Below, piece after piece: positions 854 through 15,031 of a stretch of DNA of 25,050 nucleotides (positions are counted from its first letter, which is position 1; every line of letters begins with the position of its first letter). The stretch is from positions 1 through 25,050 of the IMG/VR virus record IMGVR_UViG_3300035698_004713; one strand, given 5' to 3'. The translations under genes and the position numbers were made by a program. A model generated the notes under the pieces. It was not told the DNA's origin. It did no database searches and was given only the letters and a program-made list of their open reading frames with translations. Source of the stretch: a virus.

Positions 854-921
854 AAGGGAACGGATAGGGTCATTCCCGAAAAGGCGGCCTCTCACCGTCC
901 TGCCGTTCCCTTCTAATGAGA
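854..921 (+). ncRNA. Pseudoknotted three-way-junction RNA, copy 1 (leader of HNH gene)
   Basis: A perfect 10-bp stem P1 pairs AAGGGAACGG (854-863) with CCGTTCCCTT (903-912). It encloses hairpin P2 (867-869 with 875-877) and hairpin P3 (882-887 with 895-901, one bulged T). P2 and P3 are separated by GAAA, and P3 and P1 by one G. The 7-base P3 loop CCTCTCA (888-894) can pair with TGAGA (917-921), four bases beyond P1, forming a pseudoknot. Part of the same loop (CCTC) could instead pair with GAGG of the ribosome site at 930-933. The same architecture recurs at 14542-14615. I do not recognise a named family. A competing pairing of 856-860 with 873-877 exists. Confidence 0.55.
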
Positions 922-938
922 TAACAATGGAGGTTGTT

Positions 939-1487
939 ATGAAAAAACTCACACAAAAACGCTTGAAAGAAATTTTACACTATGATCCGAAAACTGGTAT
1001 TTTTACGTGGTTGGTGTCACGAGGGGGATCAAAAAAAGATGCTATTGCAGGATGCATAAACACTCCCGGATACAGAACGATCAGCGTAGACTATAGGCGC
1101 TATAACGCCTCGCGGTTGGCGTGGTTATATGTAGAGGGTTACTTTCCTGAAAACGATATCGATCACATAGACAGAATTAGACACAACAACAAGTGGGAAA
1201 ATTTACGGCATGTCTCTAAATCGTGCAACCTCCATAATCAAAAAATACACAAAGACAACAAGACTGGAATAACAGGAGTTTCGTGGAATAAAGAAAAACA
1301 GAAATGGCGGGTGAGGATAGCAATATTAGGCAAAGAGCTTTTTTTAGGACATTTTACAAAAAAAATTGATGCAGCCATGGCAAGGTGGCGGGGCGAGGTC
1401 AAGCATGGGCCCCTTGGATGCAACACGACGTCAACAGCCTATAGATACATACAGAAACATGGAAATAACAGTGCAGCTAATCGATAA
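939..1487 (+). CDS. HNH endonuclease with AP2 DNA-binding domain
   Basis: The 182-residue protein has an HNH nuclease core at about residues 59-101 (D75, H76, N84, then ENL at 87-89 and N97). An AP2-type DNA-binding domain follows at about 109-155 (TGITGVSW, the WRVRI strand, LGHF). This arrangement is typical of phage homing-type HNH endonucleases. I chose the ATG at 939 because GGAGG at 929-933 is well placed for it. The frame is open further upstream to 813, but that stretch holds the structured RNA. The gene overlaps the predicted terminase start by 29 bases. HNH proteins next to terminase genes can also assist cos cleavage (HK97 gp74 is the known case), so it may be a homing element or a packaging helper. 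Confidence 0.8.
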   Translation: MKKLTQKRLKEILHYDPKTGIFTWLVSRGGSKKDAIAGCINTPGYRTISVDYRRYNASRLAWLYVEGYFPENDIDHIDRIRHNNKWENLRHVSKSCNLHNQKIHKDNKTGITGVSWNKEKQKWRVRIAILGKELFLGHFTKKIDAAMARWRGEVKHGPLGCNTTSTAYRYIQKHGNNSAANR

Positions 1488-3405
1488 AAATTATACAAAA
1501 GACGAAGTTGTATGGTTAATGCAACAAATAGATGACCTTACTGATGAAAAAATCACACTAAAAGTTTCAGATGTAGCGGCACAATGCCGGATTATGCCAG
1601 TAGGAACTCCCTTTCCAGGCGTTTGGAATAACGAGAAGACGCCCTATTTAATTGAATTTATGGATGACGTTGGGGAGCTAAGCCCTGTCGAAGTGTCTGT
1701 TTTCATGAAAGCCCATCAAATTGGGGCAACATCAGCTATCGAAAATGCCATTTTATATATAATAAAACACGCTCCGGGGCCCTGCCTCTATACAACTGCC
1801 ACAGATCCGCTCGGAAAAGAATGGTCTGAGAACAGGTTTGATCCAATGATTGCTCAAGCTGGCATGCAAAACCTTATTTTCTCACAATCGACAAAACGTG
1901 GCAGTAAAAAAACCGGAGACAAGACGCTCCTGAAGGAGTTTCCGGGCGGACGCATAAAGATTGCAGGCTATGGCAGTACCGCGGCTTTCCGTTCATCTTC
2001 TTACCGTTATTTTTTTGGGGACGAAATAGACGAAGCAAGTCTTGATCTAAAAAAACAGGGAAACGCCCTGGAGCAAGCCGAAGGCCGGACATCCGCATAT
2101 AAAGCAAAACGCAAGATAATACTTTTCAGCACTCCGATTGAAATCGATCTATCAAATGTTTATGTTGCCTATCTTTTAGGAGACCAGCGTAAATATTTTG
2201 TGCCGTGCCCACATTTCGGATTCATGCAGGAGCTTGAATTTAAACATTTAAAATACAATAGAGACAAAGACGGTTTGCTTGATATAGAATCTGTCAGATA
2301 TGAATGCCAGGGATCCGAATGTGATGAATTTTTTTATAATTATCACAAAGCCGGAATGTATTCATCCGGGCGCTGCGAGTGGAGACCGACCAAAAAGGCA
2401 AAGCGTGTAAATTACAGATCACGTCACATGAATTGCCTTTACTCTCCACCAGGGATGATCACCTGGTCGGACGTTGTGCAGAAATATATTGATGCAATCG
2501 AAAGTAATGACCCGGGCAAATTAAAAACCTTTGAAACGCTTTATCTCGGATGGCCATACCGGGAAAAGGGAGAAAAGCCGGAATTCGTAAAAGTCATTTC
2601 GCACAGATCGAATTATCAATCAAAGACCGTTCCGGACGGAGTTCTCTTTTTAACACTTGGGGCGGATGTTCAGGGGGATAGGTTAGAGCTTGAAATTTGC
2701 GGGCATGGCAGGCAATATAAAACCTGGTCGATTGATTATGTGGTTATTCCCGGCGATACCAAAGCGGTTACAAAGGGCGCTTGGCCGAAGTTTCGGGAAA
2801 TGTTCCTTGCAGGATATTTTGTTTATGGAAATGCGAGAGGTAAATATGCACCGCAAATGGCTTTCATAGATTCTAATTACCGAACGGCCACGGTTGAAGA
2901 GTTTTGCGGAACCGTCCAGGGCCTTTTTCCTATCATTGGTCAAGATAAATTCAGCAATCCGCAACAGAAATTTAGAATTAATCAGTTACCAGGCACAAAT
3001 TTAATGTCTGTAAGGATCGCTACAAACTATCATAAAGACATTGTTTATAATTCTTTACGTACTGAAAGCGAACCAGGGCAAGATACACCTATCGGTTATC
3101 CTGAATTTCCGTATAATTACGACGATAAGTATTTTAAAATGCTCAATGCGGAATATAAAAGAGGCAAAAGAAAGGGCAATAAGATCGAATATGAATATTA
3201 TTGTCCCCAGGGAAAACGGAACGAGGCCCTGGATTGCCGCGTTTACAATATCGCAGCAAGAGAAGTCCTATATTATCAAACCATGGAAATGATGGAAGAT
3301 GCTATTGAGCAATACGAGCAACAGGTTAAACGGAAAATATTGGTAAGCGAGAAGGTTGAGTATTTTTACAGTCACATGGAAAATATTGGAGTATTTAAAG
3401 CTTGA
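1459..3405 (+). CDS. terL: Terminase large subunit, GpA family
   Basis: The 648-residue protein is a lambda GpA-type packaging motor: an N-terminal ATPase that translocates DNA and a C-terminal nuclease that cuts concatemers. A Walker-A-like segment KAHQIGAT starts at K84, and a Walker B strand ends in D188-E189 (FFGDEID). Nuclease acidic residues are D403 (GADVQGD), D471 (AFIDSN) and D592 (EALDCR). A cysteine-containing insert between them looks like a partly degraded zinc site (CPHF where CPHC is usual). The frame extends upstream to 1366, but that part overlaps the HNH gene heavily. I prefer the ATG at 1459, although no strong ribosome site decides this; 1519 is an alternative. No small terminase gene is visible in the window. 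Confidence 0.92.
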   Translation: MEITVQLIDKNYTKDEVVWLMQQIDDLTDEKITLKVSDVAAQCRIMPVGTPFPGVWNNEKTPYLIEFMDDVGELSPVEVSVFMKAHQIGATSAIENAILYIIKHAPGPCLYTTATDPLGKEWSENRFDPMIAQAGMQNLIFSQSTKRGSKKTGDKTLLKEFPGGRIKIAGYGSTAAFRSSSYRYFFGDEIDEASLDLKKQGNALEQAEGRTSAYKAKRKIILFSTPIEIDLSNVYVAYLLGDQRKYFVPCPHFGFMQELEFKHLKYNRDKDGLLDIESVRYECQGSECDEFFYNYHKAGMYSSGRCEWRPTKKAKRVNYRSRHMNCLYSPPGMITWSDVVQKYIDAIESNDPGKLKTFETLYLGWPYREKGEKPEFVKVISHRSNYQSKTVPDGVLFLTLGADVQGDRLELEICGHGRQYKTWSIDYVVIPGDTKAVTKGAWPKFREMFLAGYFVYGNARGKYAPQMAFIDSNYRTATVEEFCGTVQGLFPIIGQDKFSNPQQKFRINQLPGTNLMSVRIATNYHKDIVYNSLRTESEPGQDTPIGYPEFPYNYDDKYFKMLNAEYKRGKRKGNKIEYEYYCPQGKRNEALDCRVYNIAAREVLYYQTMEMMEDAIEQYEQQVKRKILVSEKVEYFYSHMENIGVFKA

Positions 3406-3430
3406 CAAGTAAAAAACAATAAATTATGTA
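3402..3430 (+). promoter_or_regulatory. Weak candidate promoter over the terL stop codon
   Basis: A consensus TTGACA at 3402-3407 overlaps the terL stop codon. Seventeen bases later comes TATGTA (3425-3430), which matches the -10 consensus at only three positions. If real, it would drive the 11-codon ORF and end at the terminator at 3565-3600. The -35 lies in CTTGACAAG, a palindrome repeated at the next promoter (3658-3666). Confidence 0.25.
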
Positions 3431-3486
3431 GCAAACATTGCATTAATAATTATATCACTTAACCATTAACCTTACAGGAGGCTCAA

Positions 3487-3522
3487 ATGAAGAAATTTAT
3501 ATTGAAACATCCCATTTTGTAG
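3487..3522 (+). CDS. 11-codon ORF with a strong ribosome site
   Basis: ATG at 3487 opens an 11-residue peptide, MKKFILKHPIL, ending in TAG at 3520-3522. A full AGGAGG at 3476-3481 stands five bases before the ATG, which is stronger than for many long genes here. It is followed by an intrinsic terminator 43 bases later, with no other gene between. It could be a small protein, a leader peptide linked to termination, or the stub of a lost gene. No family can be assigned at this length. Confidence 0.4.
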   Translation: MKKFILKHPIL

Positions 3523-3564
3523 GCTAACGTTATATAAAACTTATATCGAAATAAAAATAAAAGC

Positions 3565-3600
3565 AAAAGGGCGGTCGCACAGATCGCCCTTTTTTATTTT
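3565..3600 (+). terminator. Intrinsic terminator after terL and the short ORF
   Basis: GGGCGGTC (3569-3576) pairs with GATCGCCC (3582-3589) as eight pairs, including one G-T, around the loop GCACA. The stem is preceded by AAAA and followed by TTTTTTATTTT. This is a textbook rho-independent terminator and might also work on the other strand because of the flanking A run. It separates the terminase transcript from the head operon. Confidence 0.88.
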
Positions 3601-3623
3601 CTCCAACAGCTAATATCATTTTT

Positions 3624-3656
3624 CCTACTAAAAACCCACTATTTTCCTACTATTTT
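3624..3656 (+). repeat. Three tandem 11-bp iterons upstream of the head promoter
   Basis: Three contiguous units read CCTACTAAAAA (3624-3634), CCCACTATTTT (3635-3645) and CCTACTATTTT (3646-3656). The period is exactly 11 bp, about one helical turn, and the array ends two bases before the TTGACA at 3659. Each unit carries an A or T tract, so it could bind a regulator in phase, act as an UP element, or simply bend DNA. A further T tract at 3619-3623 continues the phase. Confidence 0.6.
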
Positions 3657-3658
3657 AC

Positions 3659-3687
3659 TTGACAAGCCTTTAAATATTGTGTAAATG
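3659..3687 (+). promoter_or_regulatory. Candidate promoter of the head-tail operon
   Basis: A consensus TTGACA at 3659-3664 lies downstream of the terminator and directly after the 11-bp iterons. The best -10 at the normal 17-bp spacing is TAAATG (3682-3687), which is poor. A poor -10 beside a good repeat array fits a promoter that needs a late activator. A new promoter is required here because the terminator at 3565-3600 should stop upstream transcripts. The ribosome site AGAGG (3716-3720) of the first head gene follows. Confidence 0.45.
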
Positions 3688-3726
3688 GCTTTTTTATATA
3701 CTACATCTTGTATAAAGAGGCCATTT

Positions 3727-3966
3727 ATGCTGTTCGACACCCTTGCTGAATACGATGAAGAAATCACTTTTGTTCGCAAACACATGCGAGATGCTGTTTG
3801 GGCTAAGGATTACCGACTTAATACCGGGCAATCTGACCAGCGCCAAGTAATGGATTTAAAGGAAATCAGGCTGTATCTGAACCAGCTAACCTCCGAACGG
3901 CAAGCGTTTTATGAAGACTCTATCGGCGCAAGCGTAACCGGCATAACAGTCAGGAGGTCTGCATGA
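3727..3966 (+). CDS. gpW-like head-tail joining protein
   Basis: This 79-residue protein lies between the terminase and portal, the place of lambda gpW (68 residues), which closes the filled head and lets the next connector bind. The ending of the helical region, IRLYLNQLTSER, resembles the gpW pattern in which a second helix ends in a similar (Y/L)I..LE motif. The ATG at 3727 is preferred because AGAGG lies six bases upstream; an ATG at 3685 has no ribosome site. The stop overlaps the portal start as ATGA. Assignment rests on order, size and weak similarity. Confidence 0.6.
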   Translation: MLFDTLAEYDEEITFVRKHMRDAVWAKDYRLNTGQSDQRQVMDLKEIRLYLNQLTSERQAFYEDSIGASVTGITVRRSA

Positions 3967-5648
3967 TTTCCTGGCTAAAATCTAAACTTTCTAAAAGCAA
4001 TCCAACAGAAAACCTACCTACCGTACAGGAAAAACTACAAACCGTACACGACGAAATTGCACAGCAATTAATATCCGGCTATCGAAGCCGTCAAGATTTT
4101 AGCGGCGATAAAATGTCGGGCGGCATGAACTATGATACTGCTTTTGGTATTGATACCTACTCTATGCGGCAAAAATCAATCCGGGCGTACTGGGAAAGTA
4201 TGCAAGCAAGAGGTATAATCAACCGCCTTGTCGATACGGTCATAAATACAGGTCTTTCGCTCGAATCAACTCCAGTATCATCCATGCTCGGATTATCCCA
4301 GGAAGAACGCAAGGAAATATCTAACAAAATAGAAACCAGGTTCAGCCTTTGGGCCAATTCAAAGGGCTGCGATCTCTCAAAAGAGAATACGCTCGGTCAA
4401 ATTGAAAGAATCTTATACAGAAATCAGCTTGTAAAAGGCGATTACTTCGCAGCGCTCCCATTTTCGAGTGATCCCTCTTTAATGAATCCACTACAAATCA
4501 AAGTCATAAAACCCGAACTGGTATCGACTCCTTTTGATTCAAAAATTAAGCAGGAAATTATAAACAGGGGTAACTATATCGTTGACGGTGTAGAGTTTAA
4601 CGAAAACGACGAAGAGGTTGCTATCCATGTCCGGGTTAAGAAAAAAGGCAAAGCAGGCGGGCTTAATTTACAATTTAATAGTTTATTTGGTAACGCAGGC
4701 TTGCCCGGACAGTATGAATGGGTAAGGTTTCCGAAATATGGCCCTATTTCTGGTCGTGTCGTTTTACTCCATGGAAAAGTTCAGGAATTCGGCAATGAAC
4801 CCAGGGGCATACCGGCGCTCGCGCACGTAGCACATGAGCTTGAAAAAATCACAGATTACTCTTTGCTCGAATTAATGGCGGCTATTGCAAACGCAACCAC
4901 GGCCATGATCGTTGAACCCGGCGAAAACGCACCGGCAACAAATCCTTTTCCGGGTAATTCTTTTGTACCTCCCAGCCTGGTACAGACTGCCGAAGATTTA
5001 ACCGTGGCCGCAGCATCAACCGATGAAGGATATTCCAATATCGGGAAAACTGTACTGAAAAATACCGGCGGCCTTTTGGTTGCTGGTTTAAAGGCCGGTG
5101 AAAAACTTAAAAGTCATGACACGAAACGGCCAAACGTAAACTTTGGGGATTTCGTTGACAGCATTACAAAATATCTGTCCGCTTCTCTCTCTATTCCGGT
5201 TGAAATATTAAGCATGGCCTTCAACAATAATTTCAGTGCATCCAGGGCATCTATAAAACTTTATTGGCAAAGCGTTTTTGTCAGGCGTGATGACTTTACG
5301 GCAGATTTTAAAACACCCGTATTTAATTCATGGCTTTTGGGCGAAGTTGGCACCGGCAATCTAATTTTGAAGGGCTTTGAAGACCACCAGTTGAGGCAGG
5401 CGTGGCAGTCCGCTTCCTGGATAGGCATTCCAAGTCCTTCAATTGATCCAGGAAAAGAAGAAAAAGCGGCGCAAATCAGGGTAGCGGAAGGCTTTACAAC
5501 TCGTGAGCAGGAAGCACAGAGGCGACACGGAACGAGTTTTGACAGCAATGTTGAACGGCTCGCATCTGAAAATAAGCGACTCGCGGAAGCTAACGAGCCA
5601 ATAACGAAACAAAAAGAACAAAACACACAACCTCAAAAAGCAGCATAA
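3963..5648 (+). CDS. Portal protein, lambda family
   Basis: The 561-residue protein matches lambda-type portals (gpB is 533 residues), which form the dodecameric ring through which DNA enters and leaves the capsid. Family features include an N-terminal segment from about residue 56 (YDTAFGIDTYSMRQKSIRAY), a region near 284 (ALAHVAHELEKITDYSLLEL) and the C-terminal core PVEILSMAFNNNFSASRA near 412. The C-terminus is a charged, glutamine- and asparagine-rich tail that is probably flexible. AGGAGG at 3952-3957 serves the start, and the gene overlaps its neighbour's stop codon on each side, so translation is likely coupled. Confidence 0.92.
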   Translation: MISWLKSKLSKSNPTENLPTVQEKLQTVHDEIAQQLISGYRSRQDFSGDKMSGGMNYDTAFGIDTYSMRQKSIRAYWESMQARGIINRLVDTVINTGLSLESTPVSSMLGLSQEERKEISNKIETRFSLWANSKGCDLSKENTLGQIERILYRNQLVKGDYFAALPFSSDPSLMNPLQIKVIKPELVSTPFDSKIKQEIINRGNYIVDGVEFNENDEEVAIHVRVKKKGKAGGLNLQFNSLFGNAGLPGQYEWVRFPKYGPISGRVVLLHGKVQEFGNEPRGIPALAHVAHELEKITDYSLLELMAAIANATTAMIVEPGENAPATNPFPGNSFVPPSLVQTAEDLTVAAASTDEGYSNIGKTVLKNTGGLLVAGLKAGEKLKSHDTKRPNVNFGDFVDSITKYLSASLSIPVEILSMAFNNNFSASRASIKLYWQSVFVRRDDFTADFKTPVFNSWLLGEVGTGNLILKGFEDHQLRQAWQSASWIGIPSPSIDPGKEEKAAQIRVAEGFTTREQEAQRRHGTSFDSNVERLASENKRLAEANEPITKQKEQNTQPQKAA

Positions 5649-5968
5649 TGGCAACCAGAATATTTGAAATAACAAATACAGAATGGCGTAGAATTACCTA
5701 TCCTGACGATGTTGGTACGTGCTGGAAAAAAACCGGTGGCGATGTCTTTGTATGTTCAAAAGCATCCGGTAAGGATTGGCGCTTGGTTCATGATGGCAAA
5801 GTAGCTTTCCTGATTGAAGGTAGCGAGAAGTTAGTTACTGAAACCATACATGAGATTGAGGAGTTTACAACTGAGAAGCTGGCGCTTGAGCAAATCAAGA
5901 AGTTGGGGTTGAAATATGATGCTCCTGAGATTCTTGAAGCGGAAGCAGTCGGCATCAGAAATATATGA
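5648..5968 (+). CDS. Unknown structural protein, CWKKTGG paralogue A
   Basis: This 106-residue protein has no family I recognise. Its first 31 residues align without gaps to those of the next gene, sharing 15 identical positions, including W13, I16, T17 and the block CWKKTGG at 25-31. The second half is unlike the neighbour: charged, helical-looking and rich in glutamate and lysine. The ATG overlaps the portal stop codon (TAATG), so translation is likely coupled. It starts a five-gene insertion between portal and protease. A small surface or decoration protein is possible but unproven. Confidence 0.7.
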   Translation: MATRIFEITNTEWRRITYPDDVGTCWKKTGGDVFVCSKASGKDWRLVHDGKVAFLIEGSEKLVTETIHEIEEFTTEKLALEQIKKLGLKYDAPEILEAEAVGIRNI

Positions 5969-5992
5969 GTAAATAATTAACGAGGGAAAAAA

Positions 5993-6295
5993 ATGGCTAC
6001 AATTGCAATTACACTTTCTAAAACGGTTTGGACGAAGATAACGGCAGCCGGTGAATCAGGCTCCTGTTGGAAAAAAACAGGCGGAACTATCATTGTTGAC
6101 CATACAGACGCTGAAGGTGGCGCTACTTTGACACTGGCAAACGTGAACGTTACAATTGCAAAGTCAAAGAGAATTCCGCTTGACATCGATGATAACAACA
6201 CCTTGAGCTTACCCGCTGATAATGCAAGCGATGTATTTTATGCACTTGCAACCGGTGAGGGCGATTCTAACATTTTAGCAGTGGATGTGATATAA
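5993..6295 (+). CDS. Unknown structural protein, CWKKTGG paralogue B
   Basis: The 100-residue protein begins MATIAITLSKTVW and carries CWKKTGG at residues 25-31, matching the preceding gene. The remainder is predicted beta-rich (GATLTLANVNVTIAKSKRIPLDI) with no charged helical tail. The pair looks like a duplication followed by divergence of the second halves. GAGGG at 5982-5986 precedes the start, and the stop overlaps the next ATG (TATAATGG). Beta-rich composition and location suggest a virion component; function unknown. Confidence 0.7.
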   Translation: MATIAITLSKTVWTKITAAGESGSCWKKTGGTIIVDHTDAEGGATLTLANVNVTIAKSKRIPLDIDDNNTLSLPADNASDVFYALATGEGDSNILAVDVI

Positions 6296-6699
6296 TGGGC
6301 GGCATAGGCGGCGGCTTTAGCGCACAAATATGGAAGGAAGTAAAAGAAATTGCTGCATCAATCTTTACGCTTACCGAAACCGGCGGCACATTAACCACTG
6401 ACGGGTCTGAACAGAATACATATATCAATGATGCCCCCGCTGGTCTGTATACACCGAAGGCGTTTATCATTGACCTTACCAACAGTCAAGCCGGGGAGAC
6501 CATTGTCGTTAAGGTCTATTATCGTATAAAATCAGGCGGTGATTATATCAAAGAAGTTGAAACATCATTTGCGGGTGTTCAAGATCCAGAGTTGGCGTTG
6601 TTTGAACTTCACGATAATCGTTATGGTGTTAAAGTAACCGCTGAATTGACGGCTGGTGTCAACCGTGATTATGATTGGGAAGCAACATACGAATTATGA
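6295..6699 (+). CDS. Unknown beta-rich structural protein
   Basis: This is a 134-residue protein starting MGGIGGGFSAQIW, with alternating hydrophobic strands (AFIIDLTNSQ, ETIVVKVYYRIKSGGDYIKEV, YGVKVTAELTAG) that suggest a beta-sandwich. A glycine-rich MxGIGG start is shared with the gene at 7442. The start overlaps the upstream stop codon, and its own stop overlaps the next start as ATGA. No catalytic motif is visible. It belongs to the five-gene insertion between portal and protease and is most likely a virion or capsid-surface protein. Confidence 0.65.
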   Translation: MGGIGGGFSAQIWKEVKEIAASIFTLTETGGTLTTDGSEQNTYINDAPAGLYTPKAFIIDLTNSQAGETIVVKVYYRIKSGGDYIKEVETSFAGVQDPELALFELHDNRYGVKVTAELTAGVNRDYDWEATYEL

Positions 6700-7445
6700 T
6701 AGCTCAAAGCTACGATAAAATACCTGAGAACGATTCGTTGCTATTTGATTTGCCATTTAGGGAAGCAACAGGCGTTGAAACGTTTGACCATGCCAAGCCG
6801 CATCATCCATTAACTATGGAAGATCCTGGTGGTGGCTCTTTCTCATGGGAAACATTGGCATCAGGTTTAAGTGTTCTTGAATTTGTGACTGTTGGTGGCG
6901 GTTGGAATGATGGCGTTTATTTGAAGGGGGCAACTATTGCTACTGCTGATTTTGATTTTGTTGCAGGTAATTATAGTCTTGGTGCTTGGGTCAAGTGGGA
7001 TGGTACAGGTGGATGGTCAGAAATTTTAATGGGCAGGTATGTCATAAATCAAGCTGGGTGGGAAACTTATTTTGATTTAAGTGGTGGTTTAAATACATTA
7101 TCACAAAGACATCATCATCTTTCCTTGGCACCTAATACAAACAGTAATTGTTATTCAACAGGTTGGACACCCGGTGTTTGGGCGTTTGTTGGTATTTCAC
7201 GAACTGGTGGCAACCTTTATCCGCAGCATTATCGAAATGGTAATGTTTTAGCAATGGCATATGAAGCAACAGGGATGCTTGACCCCGATACCTGTGTGCA
7301 AACTTTTGAAGTTGGCTGTAGATATACGTTTGATGCTAATTGGTTTAAAGGCCAGATGTGGAGGCCAAGGATTTGGAATCGAACCTTACTTGCTTCTGAG
7401 TGGGCGACTATTTTTGATCGAGAGAGGAGTTTATTTGGCTTATGA
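6696..7445 (+). CDS. LamG/concanavalin-A-like lectin domain protein
   Basis: The 249-residue product looks like a LamG-type jellyroll of the concanavalin A-like superfamily. Supporting features are GVYLKGATI, the strand NYSLGAWVKWDG, TPGVWAFVGISR followed by YRNGN, and the terminal PRIWNRTLLASEW, where such domains usually end (typically RVYNRALS..E). These domains usually bind glycans or other surfaces. I chose the ATG at 6696, which overlaps the upstream stop as ATGA; the in-frame ATG at 6675 would add seven residues inside the previous gene. Base use (many GGT, GTT and TTG codons) looks different from the flanking genes, suggesting separate acquisition. Its place in the head module is unusual; it may decorate the capsid. 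Confidence 0.75.
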   Translation: MIAQSYDKIPENDSLLFDLPFREATGVETFDHAKPHHPLTMEDPGGGSFSWETLASGLSVLEFVTVGGGWNDGVYLKGATIATADFDFVAGNYSLGAWVKWDGTGGWSEILMGRYVINQAGWETYFDLSGGLNTLSQRHHHLSLAPNTNSNCYSTGWTPGVWAFVGISRTGGNLYPQHYRNGNVLAMAYEATGMLDPDTCVQTFEVGCRYTFDANWFKGQMWRPRIWNRTLLASEWATIFDRERSLFGL

Positions 7446-8086
7446 GTGGCATAGGTGGACAAATTCCGAACTTTCCGGGGCCGGTCACGGTAGGCACGTC
7501 ACCTAATCGTATGATTATAGGCAGTAACGGAAAAATTACAATGGAAGGCACGGCCAAGGGATATCTAACCCTAAGAGCCGAAGCGGATTATACTGCGCAG
7601 TTGGCTCACTCAAAACCTACACAGGGAGCTATTGGAGTTTTCAAAGGGTTTTCTTTTCCTGTGTATGCGGCTGATAACGAAGAGCTTTTTTTCCGTGAGA
7701 CTGTGCCGGATAGATGGGACGGTGTTTCTGACATTGTTTTTCATTTAAAAGTTGCGCTCTCAAACACAGAAGATATAGACGACTATTTTAAATTCCAGCT
7801 TTCATGGGAACACGCTGCGTGTGATGAAATAGTTCCGGCTACCTCTAACGACGTTGAAGTTGAACAAGCTGTTTTGACTGGCCGAAATGCTCAATATGAT
7901 GAATATGAACTAACATTCATAATAGACCACGACATTGATGGAGCCGGAAACGAAATTAAATCTCATGAGCTTTTAGGGGCGAGGCTTCGCAGGATTGACG
8001 CAACTAATCCGGATGTATCGAATGAGATAATAGTGCTGAATTGGCACACGCATTATATTTGCGATAAGATACTTGGAAGTTCATAA
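7442..8086 (+). CDS. Unknown structural protein upstream of the protease
   Basis: The 214-residue protein begins MSGIGGQIPNFPGPVTVGTSPNRMII. It reads as a beta-rich domain with aromatic strands (DIVFHLKVALS, YFKFQLSWEH, EYELTFIIDHDIDG) and ends near ELLGARLRRIDA followed by EIIVLNWHTHY. No enzyme motif is seen. The start overlaps the lectin gene stop as ATGA, so the two are probably translated together and may be partners. It closes the five-gene insertion; the protease follows after its own strong ribosome site. Function is unknown; a trimeric-looking capsid surface or fibre attachment protein is a guess. Confidence 0.65.
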   Translation: MSGIGGQIPNFPGPVTVGTSPNRMIIGSNGKITMEGTAKGYLTLRAEADYTAQLAHSKPTQGAIGVFKGFSFPVYAADNEELFFRETVPDRWDGVSDIVFHLKVALSNTEDIDDYFKFQLSWEHAACDEIVPATSNDVEVEQAVLTGRNAQYDEYELTFIIDHDIDGAGNEIKSHELLGARLRRIDATNPDVSNEIIVLNWHTHYICDKILGSS

Positions 8087-8099
8087 AAAGGAGGGCAAT

Positions 8100-9188
8100 A
8101 TGCCGAAAACAGTAAACATAGAAGGAATTATCGGCTTGGAAGTCGAGAACTCAGATGTCCGGGAACAACTCGAAGCCGCAAACGGTGAAGACGTTGTCGT
8201 AAATATCGCAAGTCCGGGCGGTATGATTTCAGAAGGATTGCTCATTTACAATGAGCTTAAAAACTATCAAGGAAACGTTGATACACACCTGAACGGCTCT
8301 GTTGCATCAATGGCAAGCTATATAGCCATGGTCGGCAATCACAGAACAGCCGAAAATAACGCAGTCTTTATGATTCACAACGGATCGGGCCTCGCTATCG
8401 GTGATTATCGGGTTATGCTCAAATTCGGCGCTCATCTTGACTCTTTAACAAATATTATCGCCAAAGAAATGGCTTTAAAATCCGAAACCGACCTGGCAGA
8501 GATCCGAGAGGCGATGAACGAAACCACTTTTTACTATGGTGACGAAATCAAAGATGCCGGATTTGTCCACGAAATGACCGGGGACGAAGACCCGGAAGAC
8601 CGGGCGGAGGCGGTAGCTTTTGCAGAATTGATGATCGAAGAGTGTCAAACTAAAATCAATACACCGGAAAGCGTTAAAAAAGACATGAACGCACTTGCAA
8701 TTATGATGGCAGACGAACCAAAACTTGCAGAAAATAAAAAAATGTTCGCACAAGGACTTAATTTGATAAAACCAGAACCTAAACCAACAAAAAAGCAGGA
8801 GGTAAAAGCTATGACATTGGATGAACTAAAAAAAGAAAACCCTGAGCTTTATAAAGAAATTATGGCGCTCGGATTGGCAGAGGGAACCAACCAAGAACGT
8901 GCACGAGTAAAAACTCTGGTCGAAATGAGAGCGAAGTTTCCAAAAGAACACTCTCAGAAGGTTATCGACACGGCTATCATGGAAGGGCACGAGCTGAACC
9001 AGGTCTCAATCAACCTTATGTCGGCGGACCAGGTTGCCGCAGAGCTTGAAAAAGCCATAGCTGATGCCGCAAAAGTTCCCGGAAACGGCGCTGATGACGT
9101 GCCTGAAATGGTTGACGGCGAAATGACACATCCTGATCATGTGGATGCTGTCGGGGCTGAAATCGCAAGTCTTCCGGGCGTAATGTAA
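8100..9188 (+). CDS. ClpP-like prohead protease with C-terminal scaffold region
   Basis: The 362-residue protein has an N-terminal ClpP/crotonase-fold serine protease (about residues 1-185). INIASPGG-like VNIASPGGMISEG is at about 38-50, the nucleophile S70 is in GSVASM, and H93 is in MIHNGSG. The conserved stretch FYYGDEIKDAGFVHE follows. The remaining half is charged and helical, as expected for a scaffold. Such proteases cleave scaffold and capsid proteins during prohead maturation. AAGGAGGG at 8088-8094 decides the start at 8100 over the frame's upstream ATG at 8073. It precedes decoration and capsid genes in the lambda order, where gpC (an S49 protease) is the positional equivalent. An internal start produces a separate scaffold (next entry). 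Confidence 0.9.
   Translation: MPKTVNIEGIIGLEVENSDVREQLEAANGEDVVVNIASPGGMISEGLLIYNELKNYQGNVDTHLNGSVASMASYIAMVGNHRTAENNAVFMIHNGSGLAIGDYRVMLKFGAHLDSLTNIIAKEMALKSETDLAEIREAMNETTFYYGDEIKDAGFVHEMTGDEDPEDRAEAVAFAELMIEECQTKINTPESVKKDMNALAIMMADEPKLAENKKMFAQGLNLIKPEPKPTKKQEVKAMTLDELKKENPELYKEIMALGLAEGTNQERARVKTLVEMRAKFPKEHSQKVIDTAIMEGHELNQVSINLMSADQVAAELEKAIADAAKVPGNGADDVPEMVDGEMTHPDHVDAVGAEIASLPGVM
8811..9188 (+). CDS. Nested in-frame scaffold protein (Nu3-like)
   Basis: Inside the protease gene a full AGGAGG (8797-8802) stands eight bases before an in-frame ATG at 8811. The product would be the last 125 residues, starting MTLDELKKENPELYKEI. It is highly charged and helical, with no protease residues, as expected of a capsid assembly scaffold. 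In lambda the scaffold Nu3 is made the same way, from an internal in-frame start in the protease gene C. Here the surrounding protease is ClpP-like instead of S49. The strong ribosome site in the middle of a gene is directly seen; expression as a separate protein is inferred. Confidence 0.72.
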   Translation: MTLDELKKENPELYKEIMALGLAEGTNQERARVKTLVEMRAKFPKEHSQKVIDTAIMEGHELNQVSINLMSADQVAAELEKAIADAAKVPGNGADDVPEMVDGEMTHPDHVDAVGAEIASLPGVM

Positions 9189-9219
9189 GATTAAACAGAC
9201 TTAAAACGGAGGTATAAAA

Positions 9220-10038
9220 ATGACTATCCAAGTGAGATCAGATATTAACAATGAAACGTTTGTGCTCGATGATACGGCGGAAGTTCTTGACAGCATTACA
9301 TTGGCCGCAGAGCAGGGCGATATTACAATCGGGGCAGTCCTTGGCGAAGTTACCGCAACGCCTGGAACATATAAGGTGTGCGACGCTCTCGCTACAGATG
9401 GGAGCGAAATCCCGAAATTGTTACTTGCAACTGCCGACGTTGCCAGCGATGGATCACCCACGACCAACCTGTCGGCATTCAAAGCAGGGCTTTTTGATGA
9501 AAACCAGCTTGTTTTTGGAGGGTCAACGGATAAAGACACTCGGTTTAATACCGAATTGATGCCGAACATTGTAGACCGTGACTTTGATAGCGCTGGCGGA
9601 ACATTAACTCCAGCGTGGGCAAACATTGACATTAATGCCTATGACGAAGTGGATGATCTGACTTTGACGGCAAGTGCAGCAGATCAATATTGCACATTGC
9701 CGGTTCTTAGCTTTCCGACCGAAATAGGCAAGACTTACAAGATGCTTTATGATCTTGCGGGCCTCGCTGGTTCATGGATTATAAAAGATTTCACAGGCGT
9801 ACAGACCCTCGGAACCATCATTGCAAATGCTACGCAAGGGGCTATAACATGGTTGGCAGAAACAACCGGTGGTATGAGAATTGTGTCAGTTTCCAGCGAT
9901 GGAGGCACCTTTGACAATTTTAAACTTCAGAGGTCGGGCGATTTATCAGATCTCACAATGGAAGACGCTCTCAGAATGCTGAATATCAGACTTGCACCAG
10001 GTATCAGCGTTTCAAAATATCAAAATCCTGTGATTTAA
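9220..10038 (+). CDS. Head decoration protein D family with inserted domain
   Basis: The 272-residue protein matches gpD-type decoration proteins at its ends. Residues 1-116 include the features GAVLGEVTATPGTYK and FKAGLFDENQLVFGGSTD. The final stretch DALRMLNIRLAPGIS (about 249-263) resembles the family's closing helix. Lambda gpD has only 110 residues. The extra part (about 117-240) looks like an inserted beta jellyroll of carbohydrate-binding type, with FPTEIGKTYKMLYDLAG near 165 and the closing GGTFDNFKLQ near 228. The position before the major capsid gene fits a capsid-stabilising trimer. The ribosome cassette CGGAGGTATAAAAATGAC is repeated before the next gene. The lectin-like nature of the insertion is inference. 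Confidence 0.78.
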   Translation: MTIQVRSDINNETFVLDDTAEVLDSITLAAEQGDITIGAVLGEVTATPGTYKVCDALATDGSEIPKLLLATADVASDGSPTTNLSAFKAGLFDENQLVFGGSTDKDTRFNTELMPNIVDRDFDSAGGTLTPAWANIDINAYDEVDDLTLTASAADQYCTLPVLSFPTEIGKTYKMLYDLAGLAGSWIIKDFTGVQTLGTIIANATQGAITWLAETTGGMRIVSVSSDGGTFDNFKLQRSGDLSDLTMEDALRMLNIRLAPGISVSKYQNPVI

Positions 10039-10070
10039 TACTAAACTAATTTTCTAACGGAGGTATAAAA

Positions 10071-11219
10071 ATGACCATTGCAGCGGTACAAAACTATACA
10101 AGGCTAATGGCCCAGGTGTTTACGGATTTGGAAACAATTCCTGTTTTTACATTGTTCCAGAATCTTTTCACTTCGGGACAAACAATTATCGAAATGGACG
10201 CTAACGCAATCGATATTGACATCCAGAGAGGTAACAAAAAGATTGCTGTTTACATTCCAAGGGGCACGGATGCTGTAAATGTCGGAGACAACAGGGCATT
10301 ATTGGAGAAATTCACGTCCGACACAAAGCTGTTTCCCTTGATTGAAGAGCTAACACCTATTACGTCGAGCATGATCACAAAGAGAATGCCGGGAGAATCG
10401 GTTTACAATCCTCTTTCCAGGACTGCGAAACAGACCGCGCTTGCCATGAAAGCGCACCGTGAGCATATGAACCGGATCATCCGGAAAATGGAATATTCAG
10501 CGGCTGAGTCCGTTAGAACCGGATTTCAGACAATCCACGGCGGTCTCAAATACGATTTTTACCGGCTTGCAACCCATAACGCTTCGGCAGCAACAGTATG
10601 GAGCACATCTGCAACCGCAGTTCCGGTTACCGACCTTGCTGCCGCTGGTGATCTTATTTTTACTGTTGGAAACAGACGGCCAACGGACGTGATTTTTAGC
10701 GGCCAGTCATGGGATGAATTTTTGCTTACTACTCAGGTTATAAACCTTGCAGATAGTCGACGTGTTGTCCACTTTACGGCGGACATGACCGTTGACGCTC
10801 CTGCCGGATATGAAGACTGGGTAAAATCAGGCGCAGTTTTCCAGGGACAGGTAAAGGCCGGCAACTGGAAACTCAATATGTGGACATATCCTGCGATTTA
10901 CGATACCGACACAGATGTCAAAACGCAGTATTTGCCGGATGAAGAAACGCTTATTATCGCTAAGGGCGCTCGTTATGACCGTTATTTCGGGCCGATGGAC
11001 AGGCTGGAGGTAGATGATTCTATTTTTAGACGCATGTTTAATATTGGCGATATTTCTGGCATGTCTCCGAACGTTGTAGAGTCAGGCATTTTTAGCTCCG
11101 CAATGTTTCATGTTGACGCTTATGGCGGAGCTAATAACAAGGCATTTACTGTCAGAACTCAGGTTGCGCCGATTTTTCCGACAACCGAGATCGACACGAT
11201 TGTCAAACTCGCAACATAG
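10071..11219 (+). CDS. Major capsid protein, gpE family
   Basis: This 382-residue protein resembles the lambda gpE major capsid family (gpE has 341 residues), an HK97-fold shell protein. The family-like N-terminal part runs from LFQNLFTSGQTIIEMD into VAVYIPRG-like IAVYIPRGTDA; the central helix has RTAKQTALAMKAHREHM and the C-terminal region YFGPMDRLEV. It follows the decoration gene directly, as in lambda D-E, and is preceded by CGGAGGTATAAAA. No delta-domain scaffold is fused to its N-terminus, which agrees with a separate scaffold encoded in the protease gene. Confidence 0.9.
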   Translation: MTIAAVQNYTRLMAQVFTDLETIPVFTLFQNLFTSGQTIIEMDANAIDIDIQRGNKKIAVYIPRGTDAVNVGDNRALLEKFTSDTKLFPLIEELTPITSSMITKRMPGESVYNPLSRTAKQTALAMKAHREHMNRIIRKMEYSAAESVRTGFQTIHGGLKYDFYRLATHNASAATVWSTSATAVPVTDLAAAGDLIFTVGNRRPTDVIFSGQSWDEFLLTTQVINLADSRRVVHFTADMTVDAPAGYEDWVKSGAVFQGQVKAGNWKLNMWTYPAIYDTDTDVKTQYLPDEETLIIAKGARYDRYFGPMDRLEVDDSIFRRMFNIGDISGMSPNVVESGIFSSAMFHVDAYGGANNKAFTVRTQVAPIFPTTEIDTIVKLAT

Positions 11220-11230
11220 GAGGTTTAAAA

Positions 11231-11668
11231 ATGTTTTGGAATTCAAAAACATCTACCTATTATGACAGAGGCAAAAAAGCTTATTCCTTTGGCGTTGAAA
11301 TTCCCGTCGATGTTATCGAAAAAATGGGTCAAGAGACTTTTGATGAATATGTTGAAAAGGGCTTGATAAGCGATGGCGTTGTAGAGGACATTGTGGCGGA
11401 AGAGGCTGTCGTAATAGAAGAAACTGCCGAAGAGCGGGCGGCAAAACATAGACAAAACCTGTTTGACAAGGCCAAATCTTACGGTTTAAAACCTCATCCT
11501 AAAACCGGCATTGCAAAGCTTGAAGTAATGGTCGAAGATTTTGAGGCTTTGGGGGCGCTTAAAAGAGAAGCTCTCTCTCTCGGCATTGATCCGAGCGACG
11601 ATGTTGGCTTTGCAGAGCTTACAGATCTAGTAAACGAGAAAAAGGCCGAAGATGAGTCTGATTCTTAG
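11231..11668 (+). CDS. Head protein with two HeH/SAP-like repeats (FI position)
   Basis: The 145-residue acidic protein sits where lambda has FI, just after the capsid gene. Residues 1-55 form a small domain (YYDRGKKAYSFGVEIP). Residues about 77-105 and 109-138 are two similar helix-loop-helix units (LFDKAKSYGLKP..TGIAKLEVMVEDF and LKREALSLGIDP..VGFAELTDLVNE) that resemble HeH/SAP-type nucleic-acid-binding repeats. Lambda FI helps terminase find proheads, so a DNA or terminase contact would fit, but sequence similarity to FI itself is not evident. AGGAGG at 11218-11223 serves the start. The 3' end overlaps the next gene by 17 bases. Confidence 0.65.
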   Translation: MFWNSKTSTYYDRGKKAYSFGVEIPVDVIEKMGQETFDEYVEKGLISDGVVEDIVAEEAVVIEETAEERAAKHRQNLFDKAKSYGLKPHPKTGIAKLEVMVEDFEALGALKREALSLGIDPSDDVGFAELTDLVNEKKAEDESDS

Positions 11669-12008
11669 GAACGAGGAATTTCTCGAAAGATCCCTTGAAG
11701 ATACTGACGCTTTCGGCTGGGCATTTACGTTAACAAACCCGCTCGGAGATTCTCAATCGATTTCCGGGCAGGCACGACATATCAATATGATGATTGATAT
11801 TGATACCGGCGTGGAGGTTCAGCAGGAACAAGCTTCTATTGTGGCAAGGCTTTCTACTATTACAATCGGAGAGCCTAAAAAAGATTGGCTTGTTACGGTA
11901 ACAGATACAGCCGGGAACTCGTATAACTGTTATGTTACCGAAGCGATGCCGGACAGGACTTTCGGTCTCGTTGTTTTAAAGCTCGGATTGCTGGAGGTTA
12001 TAGCTTAA
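11652..12008 (+). CDS. Head-tail connector candidate (FII position)
   Basis: The 118-residue, beta-rich protein occupies the position and has nearly the size of lambda FII (117 residues), the protein that completes the head for tail attachment. Strands such as ASIVARLSTITIG and DWLVTVTDTAGNSYNCYVTEAMPD fit the small barrel of stopper or connector proteins, and the line ITIGEPKKDWLV is reminiscent of them. The start overlaps the upstream gene and its stop overlaps the next ATG (TTAATG). Assignment is from position, size and general fold character. Confidence 0.55.
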   Translation: MSLILRNEEFLERSLEDTDAFGWAFTLTNPLGDSQSISGQARHINMMIDIDTGVEVQQEQASIVARLSTITIGEPKKDWLVTVTDTAGNSYNCYVTEAMPDRTFGLVVLKLGLLEVIA

Positions 12009-12631
12009 TGCCGTTACCGTTAATCACGGAAAATATGTATTTCGATACTGTTTTAAAAGCGCTGGAAACAACGCTTGCGGCAGAAGCGGCAAATCAGGTA
12101 GCACTTGGCGGAACCGGATGGCGGACTGTCCGTGAACGCTTCGACCCTTTGAACGTTGAAGTTGACGAATTCAACCCGGGCATTGTTAATATTATCTGGT
12201 CAAATTCTAATTTTCCGGATGGTGAAGGTAACAATTTTGATCAATCGAGTCTTTCTTCTTTTGATGTTGATTGCTATGCATCCCAAAAGGGGTATGAAAG
12301 CGGCGGGATTGTAACCCCAAAAGACGAAAGGGCGGCGGACGTATTGCATGCCCTGATTACAAAAGTTTATTACACCATCATGAGTCCGATTTATTATGAT
12401 TTGGGCTTAACTCCGGGTATGATTGTAAGGCCGTGGATAACGAATATTGTAAAATTTGTTCCACATGAAACAAACATACCGATTCAAGGAGTGGTTGCGG
12501 CACGGTTTTCTTGTAAAATAAAGTTTGAGGAAATCCCGCCTAAAAAAGCAGGAGTTAACCTTGAAATTATTAATGTTAAAACCGACACGTCCGATGATGG
12601 ACTTGTCGATCAAACCTTTGACCTCACATAA
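12008..12631 (+). CDS. Tail terminator/completion protein candidate
   Basis: The 207-residue protein lies immediately before the tail sheath gene, where Mu-type phages carry the tail terminator (gp37) and a small companion. It has an N-terminal helix (MYFDTVLKALETTLAAEAA), a strand region (GIVNIIWSNSNFP), a helix DERAADVLHALITKVYYTIM and a later strand (QGVVAARFSCKIKFEEIPP), an alpha/beta order seen in terminator proteins. The C-terminal 30 residues are extra. It would cap the tube and sheath and bind the head connector. No direct similarity is certain. Confidence 0.5.
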   Translation: MPLPLITENMYFDTVLKALETTLAAEAANQVALGGTGWRTVRERFDPLNVEVDEFNPGIVNIIWSNSNFPDGEGNNFDQSSLSSFDVDCYASQKGYESGGIVTPKDERAADVLHALITKVYYTIMSPIYYDLGLTPGMIVRPWITNIVKFVPHETNIPIQGVVAARFSCKIKFEEIPPKKAGVNLEIINVKTDTSDDGLVDQTFDLT

Positions 12632-12643
12632 GGAGGTATTATC

Positions 12644-14149
12644 ATGGCTGTTACAAGTACAGCAGTTCCTGCCGGAGCGGTAGCTTCGGTTTTTGGAAAC
12701 GAATTTAAATATGTTAATCTCAGAGAGGGTCTTGCTGGCTTGCCACAGGTAATAGCCATATTTGCAACATACGACCCCCTCAAAACTTCGGTAGTGGCCG
12801 ATGTTCCGGTACAGGTTTTCACAGATGTTGAAGCCGGAGAAAAATTTGGCTTTGGTTTTCCGGCACATCTCGCAGCACGGCAAACCCTAAGAAAATCAGG
12901 TATAGTTCCGGTCTTTATTTTCCCGATAGCGGAAGACGGCGAAGCCGGTGATGGTAGCATCCTTGTCATAGCTGCCGCTGGAGCTACAAGTTCCGGTACA
13001 ATCAGTTTGTATGTTGGCGGTCAAAGAGTTCCTGTAACGATTGCAAAAGATACGGCAGCAACAGACATACAGGTGGCCTTAACCGCTGCCATCAACGCAG
13101 CAATCAATCTGCCAGTAACGGCTCTTGTCAATGGCGAAACGGCTGAACAATCGGATATTACAAGTAAATATCTCGGACTGATTGCAAATGATATTTCCCT
13201 TGCTATCAATCTTACCGAGGCTGAAAAAGATGCGTCACCGGGCGGTGTTTCTTTTACCATTACCGACCTTACCAGTGGTTCCGGCACTTCGGTTATTACG
13301 ACTGCGCTGGCTAATATGGGCGATGATTGGTACACCTATATTGTCAACACTCTCGGCGCCGAAGCTGTTACAATGGCGGCTTTTGCAACTCACAATGAAG
13401 ATGATAGATGGGATACGTTGGTTAATAAGTTTTACCGAGCTTTTTATGGCACCGTTGCTAACCTGGCAACAGCTACGGCTATCACGGATGCTTTGACACT
13501 CGACCGGACAAACGGGGCGATCCCTTCACCCGGCGGCTACATGCTACCTCTTGAACTTGCAGCTCTCGCAGTTGGAGGTATGGCGGCACGAAATCAAAAC
13601 AATCCGGCGCAACCGTACACGGGGCTTTTACTTGACGGCTTAGTACCTGCTATATCTTCAAGTCAGTGGACATATACGCAAAGAGATACGGCGGTCAAAG
13701 ATGGTTGTTCAACTACAATCGTTGAAGACGGCGTTATCAAGCTCGAAGATGTGGTTATGCATTATCACAAAGCAGGCGAAGATCCTCCGGCTTACAGGTG
13801 GGCGGTTGATATCGCAAAGCTGGCAGAGTGGGCTTATAATGTATTTCTTGTTTTCCAGGGCGACAACTGGAGGGGTAAAATCCTTGTCGATGATACGGAT
13901 ATCGTTAATAACCCCGATGCGAGACGACCAATAGACGCAACAGCGGAGATTTTCAAGCTCGCAGATGGAGCGAGTTTTGCAGCAATAATTACAAGACCGA
14001 AATTTACAAAAGAAAACACCGCTTCAAGTATTGATGTTGCAAATCCGAACAGGCTGAATATTACAACTTTGATAGTGCTTTCCGGGGCTACCAGGGTTAT
14101 CTCCCTAACAACTAACTTTGGATTTAATTTCGGCGCACTGGCTGAATAA
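12644..14149 (+). CDS. L: Contractile tail sheath protein, Mu gpL type
   Basis: The 501-residue protein has the length of Mu gpL (495) and its domain order: N-terminal FGNEFKYVNLREGLAGLPQVIAIFATYD, a surface domain rich in alanine and threonine, and a conserved C-terminal sheath region (KLAEWAYNVFLVFQGDNWRGKILVDD split over about 388-415, and the end NPNRLNITTLIVLSGATRVISLTTNFGF). The sheath contracts to drive the tube through the host envelope, so the phage is a myovirus. AAGGAGG (12629-12635) precedes the start. Sheath and tube genes follow each other as in Mu. Confidence 0.9.
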   Translation: MAVTSTAVPAGAVASVFGNEFKYVNLREGLAGLPQVIAIFATYDPLKTSVVADVPVQVFTDVEAGEKFGFGFPAHLAARQTLRKSGIVPVFIFPIAEDGEAGDGSILVIAAAGATSSGTISLYVGGQRVPVTIAKDTAATDIQVALTAAINAAINLPVTALVNGETAEQSDITSKYLGLIANDISLAINLTEAEKDASPGGVSFTITDLTSGSGTSVITTALANMGDDWYTYIVNTLGAEAVTMAAFATHNEDDRWDTLVNKFYRAFYGTVANLATATAITDALTLDRTNGAIPSPGGYMLPLELAALAVGGMAARNQNNPAQPYTGLLLDGLVPAISSSQWTYTQRDTAVKDGCSTTIVEDGVIKLEDVVMHYHKAGEDPPAYRWAVDIAKLAEWAYNVFLVFQGDNWRGKILVDDTDIVNNPDARRPIDATAEIFKLADGASFAAIITRPKFTKENTASSIDVANPNRLNITTLIVLSGATRVISLTTNFGFNFGALAE

Positions 14150-14163
14150 AGGAGGTATAGATT

Positions 14164-14541
14164 ATGTCTATTCATGGTAGTATGCGCTCTTTAACAATTA
14201 ATGGCCGGGGCTTTAAGGTGGCCCATGATGGCTCAGGTAATAAAGCTATGGGCGGGCGAAATAATGAAGTGGCGATGAACGGTGATGCCTCTTTCCGAGT
14301 TATTCAGACCGTTATGCCCGGCTCATTCAGCGATATTCAGGTCGAAGCCGATGATTCAAGGGGCGACCAGGAATTTTTACAGGAACTTTCTAACGGCGGC
14401 TTACCGGTTCCAGTTGTGGCTACCTATGCAGCCAATATCAGCTATACGGGTGATCTTGTAATAGCTGGTGAAATTGCAAAAGATGAAAGCACCGGCCTGA
14501 TTTCTTTAAGCTTCCAGGGCGGCGAACTTACAAAAATCTAA
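14164..14541 (+). CDS. M: Tail tube protein, Mu gpM type
   Basis: The 125-residue protein matches the Mu M tail tube family (about 118 residues), which stacks as hexameric rings inside the sheath. Signature features are the N-terminal GSMRSLTINGRGFKVA, the motif VQTVMPGSFSDIQV-like VIQTVMPGSFSDIQVEADDS and the terminal ISLSFQGGELTKI. AAAGGAGGT at 14148-14156 gives it a strong ribosome site. The stop codon is followed at once by the structured RNA at 14542, which separates this high-demand gene from the low-demand chaperone gene. Confidence 0.88.
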   Translation: MSIHGSMRSLTINGRGFKVAHDGSGNKAMGGRNNEVAMNGDASFRVIQTVMPGSFSDIQVEADDSRGDQEFLQELSNGGLPVPVVATYAANISYTGDLVIAGEIAKDESTGLISLSFQGGELTKI

Positions 14542-14615
14542 TCTGGTTGCCTTCGTACGGAGGTCAAGGGGGTTATCGCCTGTTACGGTAATCCTCAAAC
14601 CAGAACTTTAACAGG
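14542..14615 (+). ncRNA. Pseudoknotted three-way-junction RNA, copy 2 (leader of gp41)
   Basis: P1 pairs TCTGGTT (14542-14548) with AACCAGA (14598-14604). P2 pairs 14550-14554 with 14559-14563 around the loop GTAC. P3 pairs 14568-14578 with 14586-14596 (11 pairs, three of them G-T). P2 and P3 are separated by TCAA, and P3 and P1 by a single A. The whole 7-base P3 loop CCTGTTA (14579-14585) is perfectly complementary to TAACAGG (14609-14615), four bases beyond P1. That target overlaps the first half of the AGGAGGG ribosome site (14613-14619) of the gene at 14627. The fold could therefore limit translation of the chaperone. The architecture matches the leader at 854-921. I do not recognise a named class. 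Confidence 0.62.
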
Positions 14616-14626
14616 AGGGAATTATT

Positions 14627-15031
14627 ATGAAAACAGTTATGGGCAGAGACGTTGCAGAGGAAATGCTGCAAAACATTTATGATGAACTTGGCATTGACGG
14701 CGAACTGATAGAGGAAGAAGAAGAAGGAAAAGCCTCTACAAAAAAGATCATATCAGCATTAATGCAGGGCAGGCTCGAATATAAAGACGAAGTTTTCAAG
14801 CAAAAACTTTTAAAACCGATTACCGGCAAAAAAGAAATTCTTTTCCTTGAAATAAAAGAACCCACCGGCGTACAGCTTCGCGGAATGTCAGAAGTAAAAA
14901 AGAAAAATGATGATGTCGGCAAGGCTATGTCTGTCCTCGGCGAAGTTACAGGGCTTGGATTACCCATAGTCAACAAGCTCGGAAGCCGTGACCTGATGCT
15001 GTCTGTGGGGGTAATTTCCCTTTTTTTGTAA
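14627..15031 (+). CDS. gp41: Tail assembly chaperone, Mu gp41 type (short form)
   Basis: The 134-residue product lies between tube and tape measure, where Mu-type phages encode gp41, a chaperone that coats the tape measure during tail assembly. The core LKPITGKKEILFLEIKEP, followed by GVQLRGMSEV, resembles the Mu gp41 family (typically L..P....G..v..l.lreP...dlr). The first 50 residues are acidic and look like an added extension. The 0-frame ends at TAA 15029-15031, immediately after a run of seven T, and a longer form is expected by frameshifting. Translation starts behind the structured leader with AGGAGGG at 14613-14619. Confidence 0.8.
   Translation: MKTVMGRDVAEEMLQNIYDELGIDGELIEEEEEGKASTKKIISALMQGRLEYKDEVFKQKLLKPITGKKEILFLEIKEPTGVQLRGMSEVKKKNDDVGKAMSVLGEVTGLGLPIVNKLGSRDLMLSVGVISLFL

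Follow-up and report, generated by a model that had tools for sequence, protein, structure and literature searches.

The window analysed here comprises positions 1 to 25,050 of the IMG/VR virus record IMGVR_UViG_3300035698_004713 and contains two structured RNA leaders on its plus strand. The first (site 1, 854-921) precedes the gene for an HNH endonuclease of 182 amino acids (939-1487; Pfam HNH_3, 7.9e-12; PHROG 99), and the second (site 2, 14542-14619) lies between the genes for a tail tube protein (14164-14541; PHROG 4699, 2.7e-17) and a tail assembly chaperone (TAC, 14627-15031; Phage_TAC_7, Pfam PF10109 with 27.8 bits over 25; PHROG 4648). A preliminary description of this DNA had proposed that both leaders may form one undescribed RNA class. 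They belong to different RNA families, one of which is already catalogued and the other unique so far.

Architecture and family membership of the two leaders

Both leaders are three-way junctions in which a helix P1 encloses helices P2 and P3, as indicated by folding and by the inverted repeats, and in both a single base separates P3 from P1 (G902 and A14597, respectively). At site 1, P1 consists of ten perfect pairs (854-863/903-912, AAGGGAACGG...CCGTTCCCTT), P2 of three pairs (867-869/875-877), and P3 (882-887/895-901) contains a bulged U898. The TCTCA part of the P3 loop CCTCTCA (888-894) is complementary to TGAGA (917-921), which forms the 3' strand of a pseudoknot. In addition, the P2 loop TCATT is complementary to AATGA (915-919), resulting in two competing pseudoknots of five bases each. 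At site 2, the junction (14542-14604) is built from a P1 of the sequence TCTGGTT...AACCAGA (14542-14548/14598-14604), a P2 of six pairs (14549-14554/14559-14564) and a P3 of eleven pairs (14568-14578/14586-14596), and the segment 14535-14625 folds with -28.3 kcal/mol (z -2.55). All seven bases of its P3 loop CCTGTTA (14579-14585) are complementary to TAACAGG (14609-14615) within the pseudoknot target region (14609-14619), which overlaps the Shine-Dalgarno sequence of the TAC gene (AGGAGG, 14613-14618; ending eight bases 5' of the start codon).

Some of the further correspondences listed in the preliminary description apply to site 1 only. The linker between P2 and P3 is indeed GAAA at site 1 (878-881), and the supposed TCAA of site 2 shrinks to CAA once a G-U pair closing P2 is counted. 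Likewise, the spacer between P1 and the loop target is CTAA at site 1 (913-916), and at site 2 it reads ACTT (14605-14608) instead of CTTT. The seven-base loop motif CCTNTNA occurs in both leaders, but has no common function: the leading CC stays outside the pseudoknot at site 1, and the loop sequence is variable in the relatives of this leader.

The shared design exceeds what base composition would produce. Among 3000 dinucleotide-preserving shuffles per site, a minimum-energy fold with a three-way junction and a loop with at least five matches to the near 3' flank was obtained in one shuffle of site 1 and in none of site 2, as counted with a descriptor that was defined only after the sites had been seen. 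The check that the preliminary description had named, equally frequent folding of shuffled sequences, therefore leaves the design standing, and the two sites qualify as pseudoknotted three-way-junction leaders of regulatory appearance. The z-scores of folding are modest for both of them (-2.7 and -2.65).

The family searches separate the two. Site 1 matches the Rfam family int-alpA (RF02996, matching 857-921) with 38.2 bits and an E value of 6.6e-7 (cmscan), which is above the gathering cut-off of 35.8 bits, so that this leader cannot count as undescribed. It shares with int-alpA the order of P1, P2 and P3, the conserved junction bases UAG, CGAAAAG and CUG, all of which are present in the alignment, and a loop complementary to the 3' flank. 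For site 2, RF02996 yielded no match up to an E value of 10 in 161 bases (14500-14660), and the signature UAG, CGAAAAG and CUG is absent from 14542-14604; site 2 is thus not a member of int-alpA. A model built from site 2 only (R2) scores its own sequence at 112.5 bits and has no relatives besides itself in the window, in 63 loci and in four related phage contigs, and an exact 24-base probe from site 2 had zero matches in 2.9 million viral contigs. A joint model of both sites was considered and not built; sequence alignment fails to superpose the helices, and the cross-searches that took its place, RF02996 against site 2 and the site-2 model against the int-alpA loci, failed as well. Neither site is found by the model of the other's family. 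Weak Rfam listings for MicX and sraA near 3520-3697 scored far below their cut-offs and were dropped.

The int-alpA leader of the HNH gene

The int-alpA RNA accompanies the HNH gene in related phages. It was found with the genes of two HNH homologues whose proteins are 57% identical (L022 and L023; 46.4 bits), and in a further locus (L270; 39.9 bits) that shares its contig with the close relative L003. In L270, the RNA and the HNH gene are placed between a TerS-like gene, called by position and sequence only, without a search, and the gene for the large terminase subunit (TerL). About 20 further phage int-alpA loci were fetched with a pattern based on the int-alpA core. All 12 of their records that were tested scored above the RF02996 cut-off, each with a single copy. 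Across these loci, which were treated regardless of kinship, the complementarity between the P3 loop and the 3' flank amounts to 91 within the same locus, compared to 72.8 +/- 3.2 after re-pairing of loops and flanks (0 of 5000), indicating that the pseudoknot covaries throughout the family. Three int-alpA-like leaders (L123, L156 and L187) carry the loop GGTT together with a matching AACC downstream, representing a compensatory variant.

A second element follows between the RNA and the start codon. At site 1 it is a hairpin of the inverted repeat ATAACAA/TTGTTAT (921-940), whose loop presents the Shine-Dalgarno sequence TGGAGG (928-933) and which overlaps the start codon of the HNH gene. Hairpins presenting the Shine-Dalgarno sequence in the loop also occur in the other int-alpA loci, with arms that differ in sequence and yet pair, and their mean stem length of 5.9 pairs compares to 4.4 +/- 0.3 after randomisation (0 of 300). 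Note that the Rfam structure line of int-alpA does not contain the pseudoknot and that the model ends before the hairpin. An open reading frame starts directly 3' of the RNA in about 20 phage loci, and the genes in this position vary, including those for HNH endonucleases, endonuclease VII, pRha and methyltransferases and many without an assigned family. Because the loop pseudoknot covaries and the Shine-Dalgarno hairpin comes next, these observations favour int-alpA being a 5' translational leader over a free small RNA (sRNA), at least in phages. At site 1, the leader probably acts on the translation of a homing-type endonuclease gene, and the junction and the pseudoknot would set the opening of the Shine-Dalgarno hairpin and hence access to the HNH start site.

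A possible promoter was recognized by eye 5' of site 1 (825-853), consisting of TTGACA (825-830), a distance of 17 bases and a weak -10 element TAGTTT (848-853), with TATAAT (843-848) as an alternative. The distance from TTGACA to P1 is the same in L022 and L270 as at site 1; a promoter scan of the window did not list this candidate. Just 5' of the unit of int-alpA and HNH gene lies a gene for a Radical SAM protein (85-816; Pfam PF04055; PHROG 13321, function unknown).

Site 2 and the RNA between tail tube and chaperone genes

A view on the same intergenic position in related phages shows a different RNA. Homologues of the tail tube protein led to about 100 phage loci (some contigs being represented twice, and the viral ones being partial), most of which contain between the tube and TAC genes a three-way junction different from site 2, referred to here as tube-TAC RNA. 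Its elements appear in the order ATAGGGC just past the tube stop codon, P1, P2 with the loop GCCCTAT, P3 and P1', followed by roughly 8-20 mostly A/T bases, a second ATAGGGC, about 8 bases and the ATG of the TAC gene. P1 has the form GYYGCGC/GCGCGRC in most loci and other sequences in some, and P2 is GGG/CCC. The P2 loop is complementary to the ribosome-binding site of the TAC gene as well as to a repeat of this site at the stop codon of the tube gene.

A model of this RNA (R1), searched in 96 loci, gave 60 matches at E values of at most 0.012, located 5' of the TAC gene in the intergenic gap (with two contigs counted twice), and at most one copy per phage record at E values below 0.05. No match of R1 was obtained in ten int-alpA loci or at sites 1 and 2; with the filters switched off, all that it returned from the window was a fragment of 8 bits at 14591-14632 (E 4.9). 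Some 55 distinct related sequences carry the tube-TAC RNA; the set comprises L255, L257-L259, L262 and L263 plus about 45 IMG/VR loci. Among the cultured phages in which it is present are Shewanella phage SppYZU01 (L255, 103 bits), Oceanospirillum phage PD0307, Pseudoalteromonas phage PY6 and Acinetobacter phage Scuro, and weaker R1 matches were found in Vibrio phage 367.14, Aeromonas phage AeroV_348 and Shewanella phage SFCi1. By eye, three further Vibrio phages (L260, L261 and L266) have their elements arranged in this way as well; R1 missed them, and they were left out of the counts. The tail tube query of bacterial genomes returned one contig of the FCB group (L105), with an R1 match of 36 bits. 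In Scuro (L257), an open reading frame is inserted between the tube and TAC genes (1961-2360), and the RNA remains beside the TAC gene rather than the tube gene. No family of Rfam 15 matches the tube-TAC RNA and no description of it was found in the literature searched, so this conserved RNA is apparently undescribed.

Close relatives without the RNA are represented by L029, L051 and L055, which contain one copy of the flanking motif (TAGGGY) after the tube gene, before the TAC start. Reading the tube-TAC RNA as an insertion element on account of these empty sites was discarded, since a deletion between direct repeats explains them equally well, the RNA being orthologous in position in all matches.

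The helices and both loop pairings of the tube-TAC RNA covary, as judged from tests that were not corrected for shared descent. In a MAFFT alignment of 20 of these RNAs, which is independent of R1, 11 pairs have changed on both sides, exceeding 500 of 500 shuffles on every measure. In 58 distinct rows, fitted to the nested helices and not to the pseudoknot, the structure including the pseudoknot accounts for 97 double-changed cells, compared to 20 +/- 3.9 (0 of 500). The complementarity of the P2 loop to the 3' copy at the TAC ribosome-binding site amounts to 241 against 194 +/- 5.8 after re-pairing (0 of 2000), and that to the 5' copy at the tube stop codon to 211 against 189 +/- 5.5 (1 of 2000), the latter with 24 against 6.2 +/- 2.2 covarying cells. 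Independent changes are likely, because distinct loop types with matching partners occur in phages of different host genera. Matched triplets of 5' copy, loop and 3' copy are CAAGG, GCCTTG and CAAGGC in Scuro, TGGGGA, TCCCCAC and GTGGGG in L083, and ATAGGGT, ACCCTAT and ATAGGGT in L069. AGGG-type sites precede many genes of SppYZU01, so that for this phage the 3' copy represents an ordinary ribosome-binding site.

The tube-TAC RNA reads as a translational switch, because one loop has two exclusive partners. Its anti-Shine-Dalgarno P2 loop would shut off the TAC gene when placed on the ribosome-binding site and would turn it on when placed on the copy at the stop codon of the tube gene, which would act as a decoy. 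The 5' copy is positioned on the stop codon or within about 17 bases of it, i.e., inside the footprint of a terminating ribosome or at its edge. In a more far-reaching version, ribosomes terminating on the tube gene would cover the decoy, the loop would move to the TAC start, and chaperone output would be kept low while tube output is high. That the RNA is such a ribosome-sensing switch, with site 2 as its independently evolved replacement, is a tentative and rather doubtful proposal.

Site 2 shares the position of the tube-TAC RNA and differs from it in that the pairing loop belongs to P3 instead of P2 and that inverted repeat analysis revealed no 5' copy of TAACAGG. Since its pseudoknot extends into the 5' end of AGGAGG, the natural reading of this one sequence would be that site 2 represses TAC initiation: in the late tail operon, pairing of the P3 loop with TAACAGG would cover the 5' half of the Shine-Dalgarno sequence, and the folded leader would lower TAC initiation relative to that of the abundant tube protein. 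In related phages, a different RNA seems to serve this purpose at the equivalent position, and the amount of tube protein relative to chaperone would be the obvious quantity under control. A slippery sequence CCCTTTTTTT is present at 15018-15027, shortly before the TAC gene ends, and a -1 shift from it would lead to VSYLEIGGNTILWSIAARFPG...EESGK with a stop at about 15180; it is predicted to direct a frameshift of the lambda G/GT kind.

Interpretation and alternatives

The two leaders as a whole are best explained as distinct cis-acting elements that control translation and whose similar topology arose independently, a reading to which we assign a probability of roughly 60%. It draws directly on the folds, the family membership of site 1, the covariation of the int-alpA pseudoknot and of the tube-TAC helices and loop pairings, and the positions of the elements; from these we infer an effect on translation, the direction of the switch and any participating ligand or protein. 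Known systems offer partial parallels. The preQ1-II and SAM-II riboswitches are pseudoknots that sequester the Shine-Dalgarno sequence, and the tube-TAC RNA and site 2 resemble them in pairing a loop or tail with a ribosome-binding site. They differ in that no similarity to any Rfam family was found, that the tube-TAC RNA has two exclusive partners per loop and no known ligand, and that site 2 is an ordinary three-way junction. The pseudoknot of T4 gp32 is an autoregulatory translational operator of a phage; the leaders are likewise structured RNAs beside phage gene starts, but differ in sequence and structure and have no known RNA-binding regulator.

Several points weigh against this explanation. 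Rfam lists int-alpA as 'Gene; sRNA' and not as a leader, and at site 2 no more than three bases of AGGAGG, those at its 5' end, are covered by the pseudoknot. Moreover, site 2 is a singleton whose helices are without covariation support, and the two closest relatives, with tube proteins of 85-86% identity, have no RNA at this position but a short intergenic stretch with a plain ribosome-binding site, from which it follows that the element is dispensable. With the TAC protein as query, the sole contigs recovered were those of L002 and L003, both without the RNA. Finally, shared ancestry is left in by the shuffling and re-pairing controls.

The absence from the closest relatives and the z-score of only about -2.6 would also agree with a site 2 that folds by chance or is a decaying remnant, in either case without function. 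We consider this unlikely in view of the eleven-pair P3, the complete match between the loop and a target ending on the Shine-Dalgarno sequence, the failure of any of the 3000 shuffles to give the design, and the dozens of relatives in which a broadly similar RNA is kept at this position. Less probable still is that the int-alpA RNA of site 1 acts mainly in trans as an sRNA with the HNH gene as a mere neighbour. This would fit its Rfam type, but the open reading frames starting directly 3' of the RNA in about 20 phage loci and the Shine-Dalgarno hairpins whose stems vary and remain paired argue against it, as does the result that no terminator was found between RNA and gene at site 1.

That both leaders form one class after all, with site 2 as a very diverged int-alpA or as a bridge from int-alpA to the tube-TAC RNA, would account for the identical order of elements, the pseudoknot joining the P3 loop with the bases next to P1 on its 3' side, and the place of site 2 in the position of the tube-TAC RNA. 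It is nevertheless highly improbable, because RF02996 fails on site 2, R1 matches neither site, R2 finds none of the int-alpA and tube-TAC leaders, the int-alpA signature is missing, and the P2 loop pairing and 5' copy of the tube-TAC RNA have no counterpart at site 2. In class 1 exonuclease-resistant RNAs of flaviviruses, the P3 loop of a three-way junction pairs with bases immediately 3' of P1. The leaders share this junction and pseudoknot topology, but because they are located at phage start codons, with at most a few bases 5' of P1 to be threaded at site 1 (if the promoter is read correctly) and a position inside a polycistronic mRNA at site 2, and because pseudoknots or adjacent hairpins on ribosome-binding sites fit translation better, the proposal that they shield downstream mRNA from 5'-to-3' decay has very little probability and is to be taken as an analogy only.

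Keeping the two leaders apart corrects a false merger, as one of them had already been catalogued. For the int-alpA family in phages, a pseudoknot and a Shine-Dalgarno hairpin, both outside the Rfam model, are added to the known structure, and these RNAs may now be tested as translational leaders. The phages with the tube-TAC RNA appear to place one loop with two exclusive partners between the tail tube and tail chaperone genes, and its presence in cultured phages such as SppYZU01, PD0307, PY6 and Scuro would allow the way in which phages set the ratio of tail parts to be studied with simple reporters.

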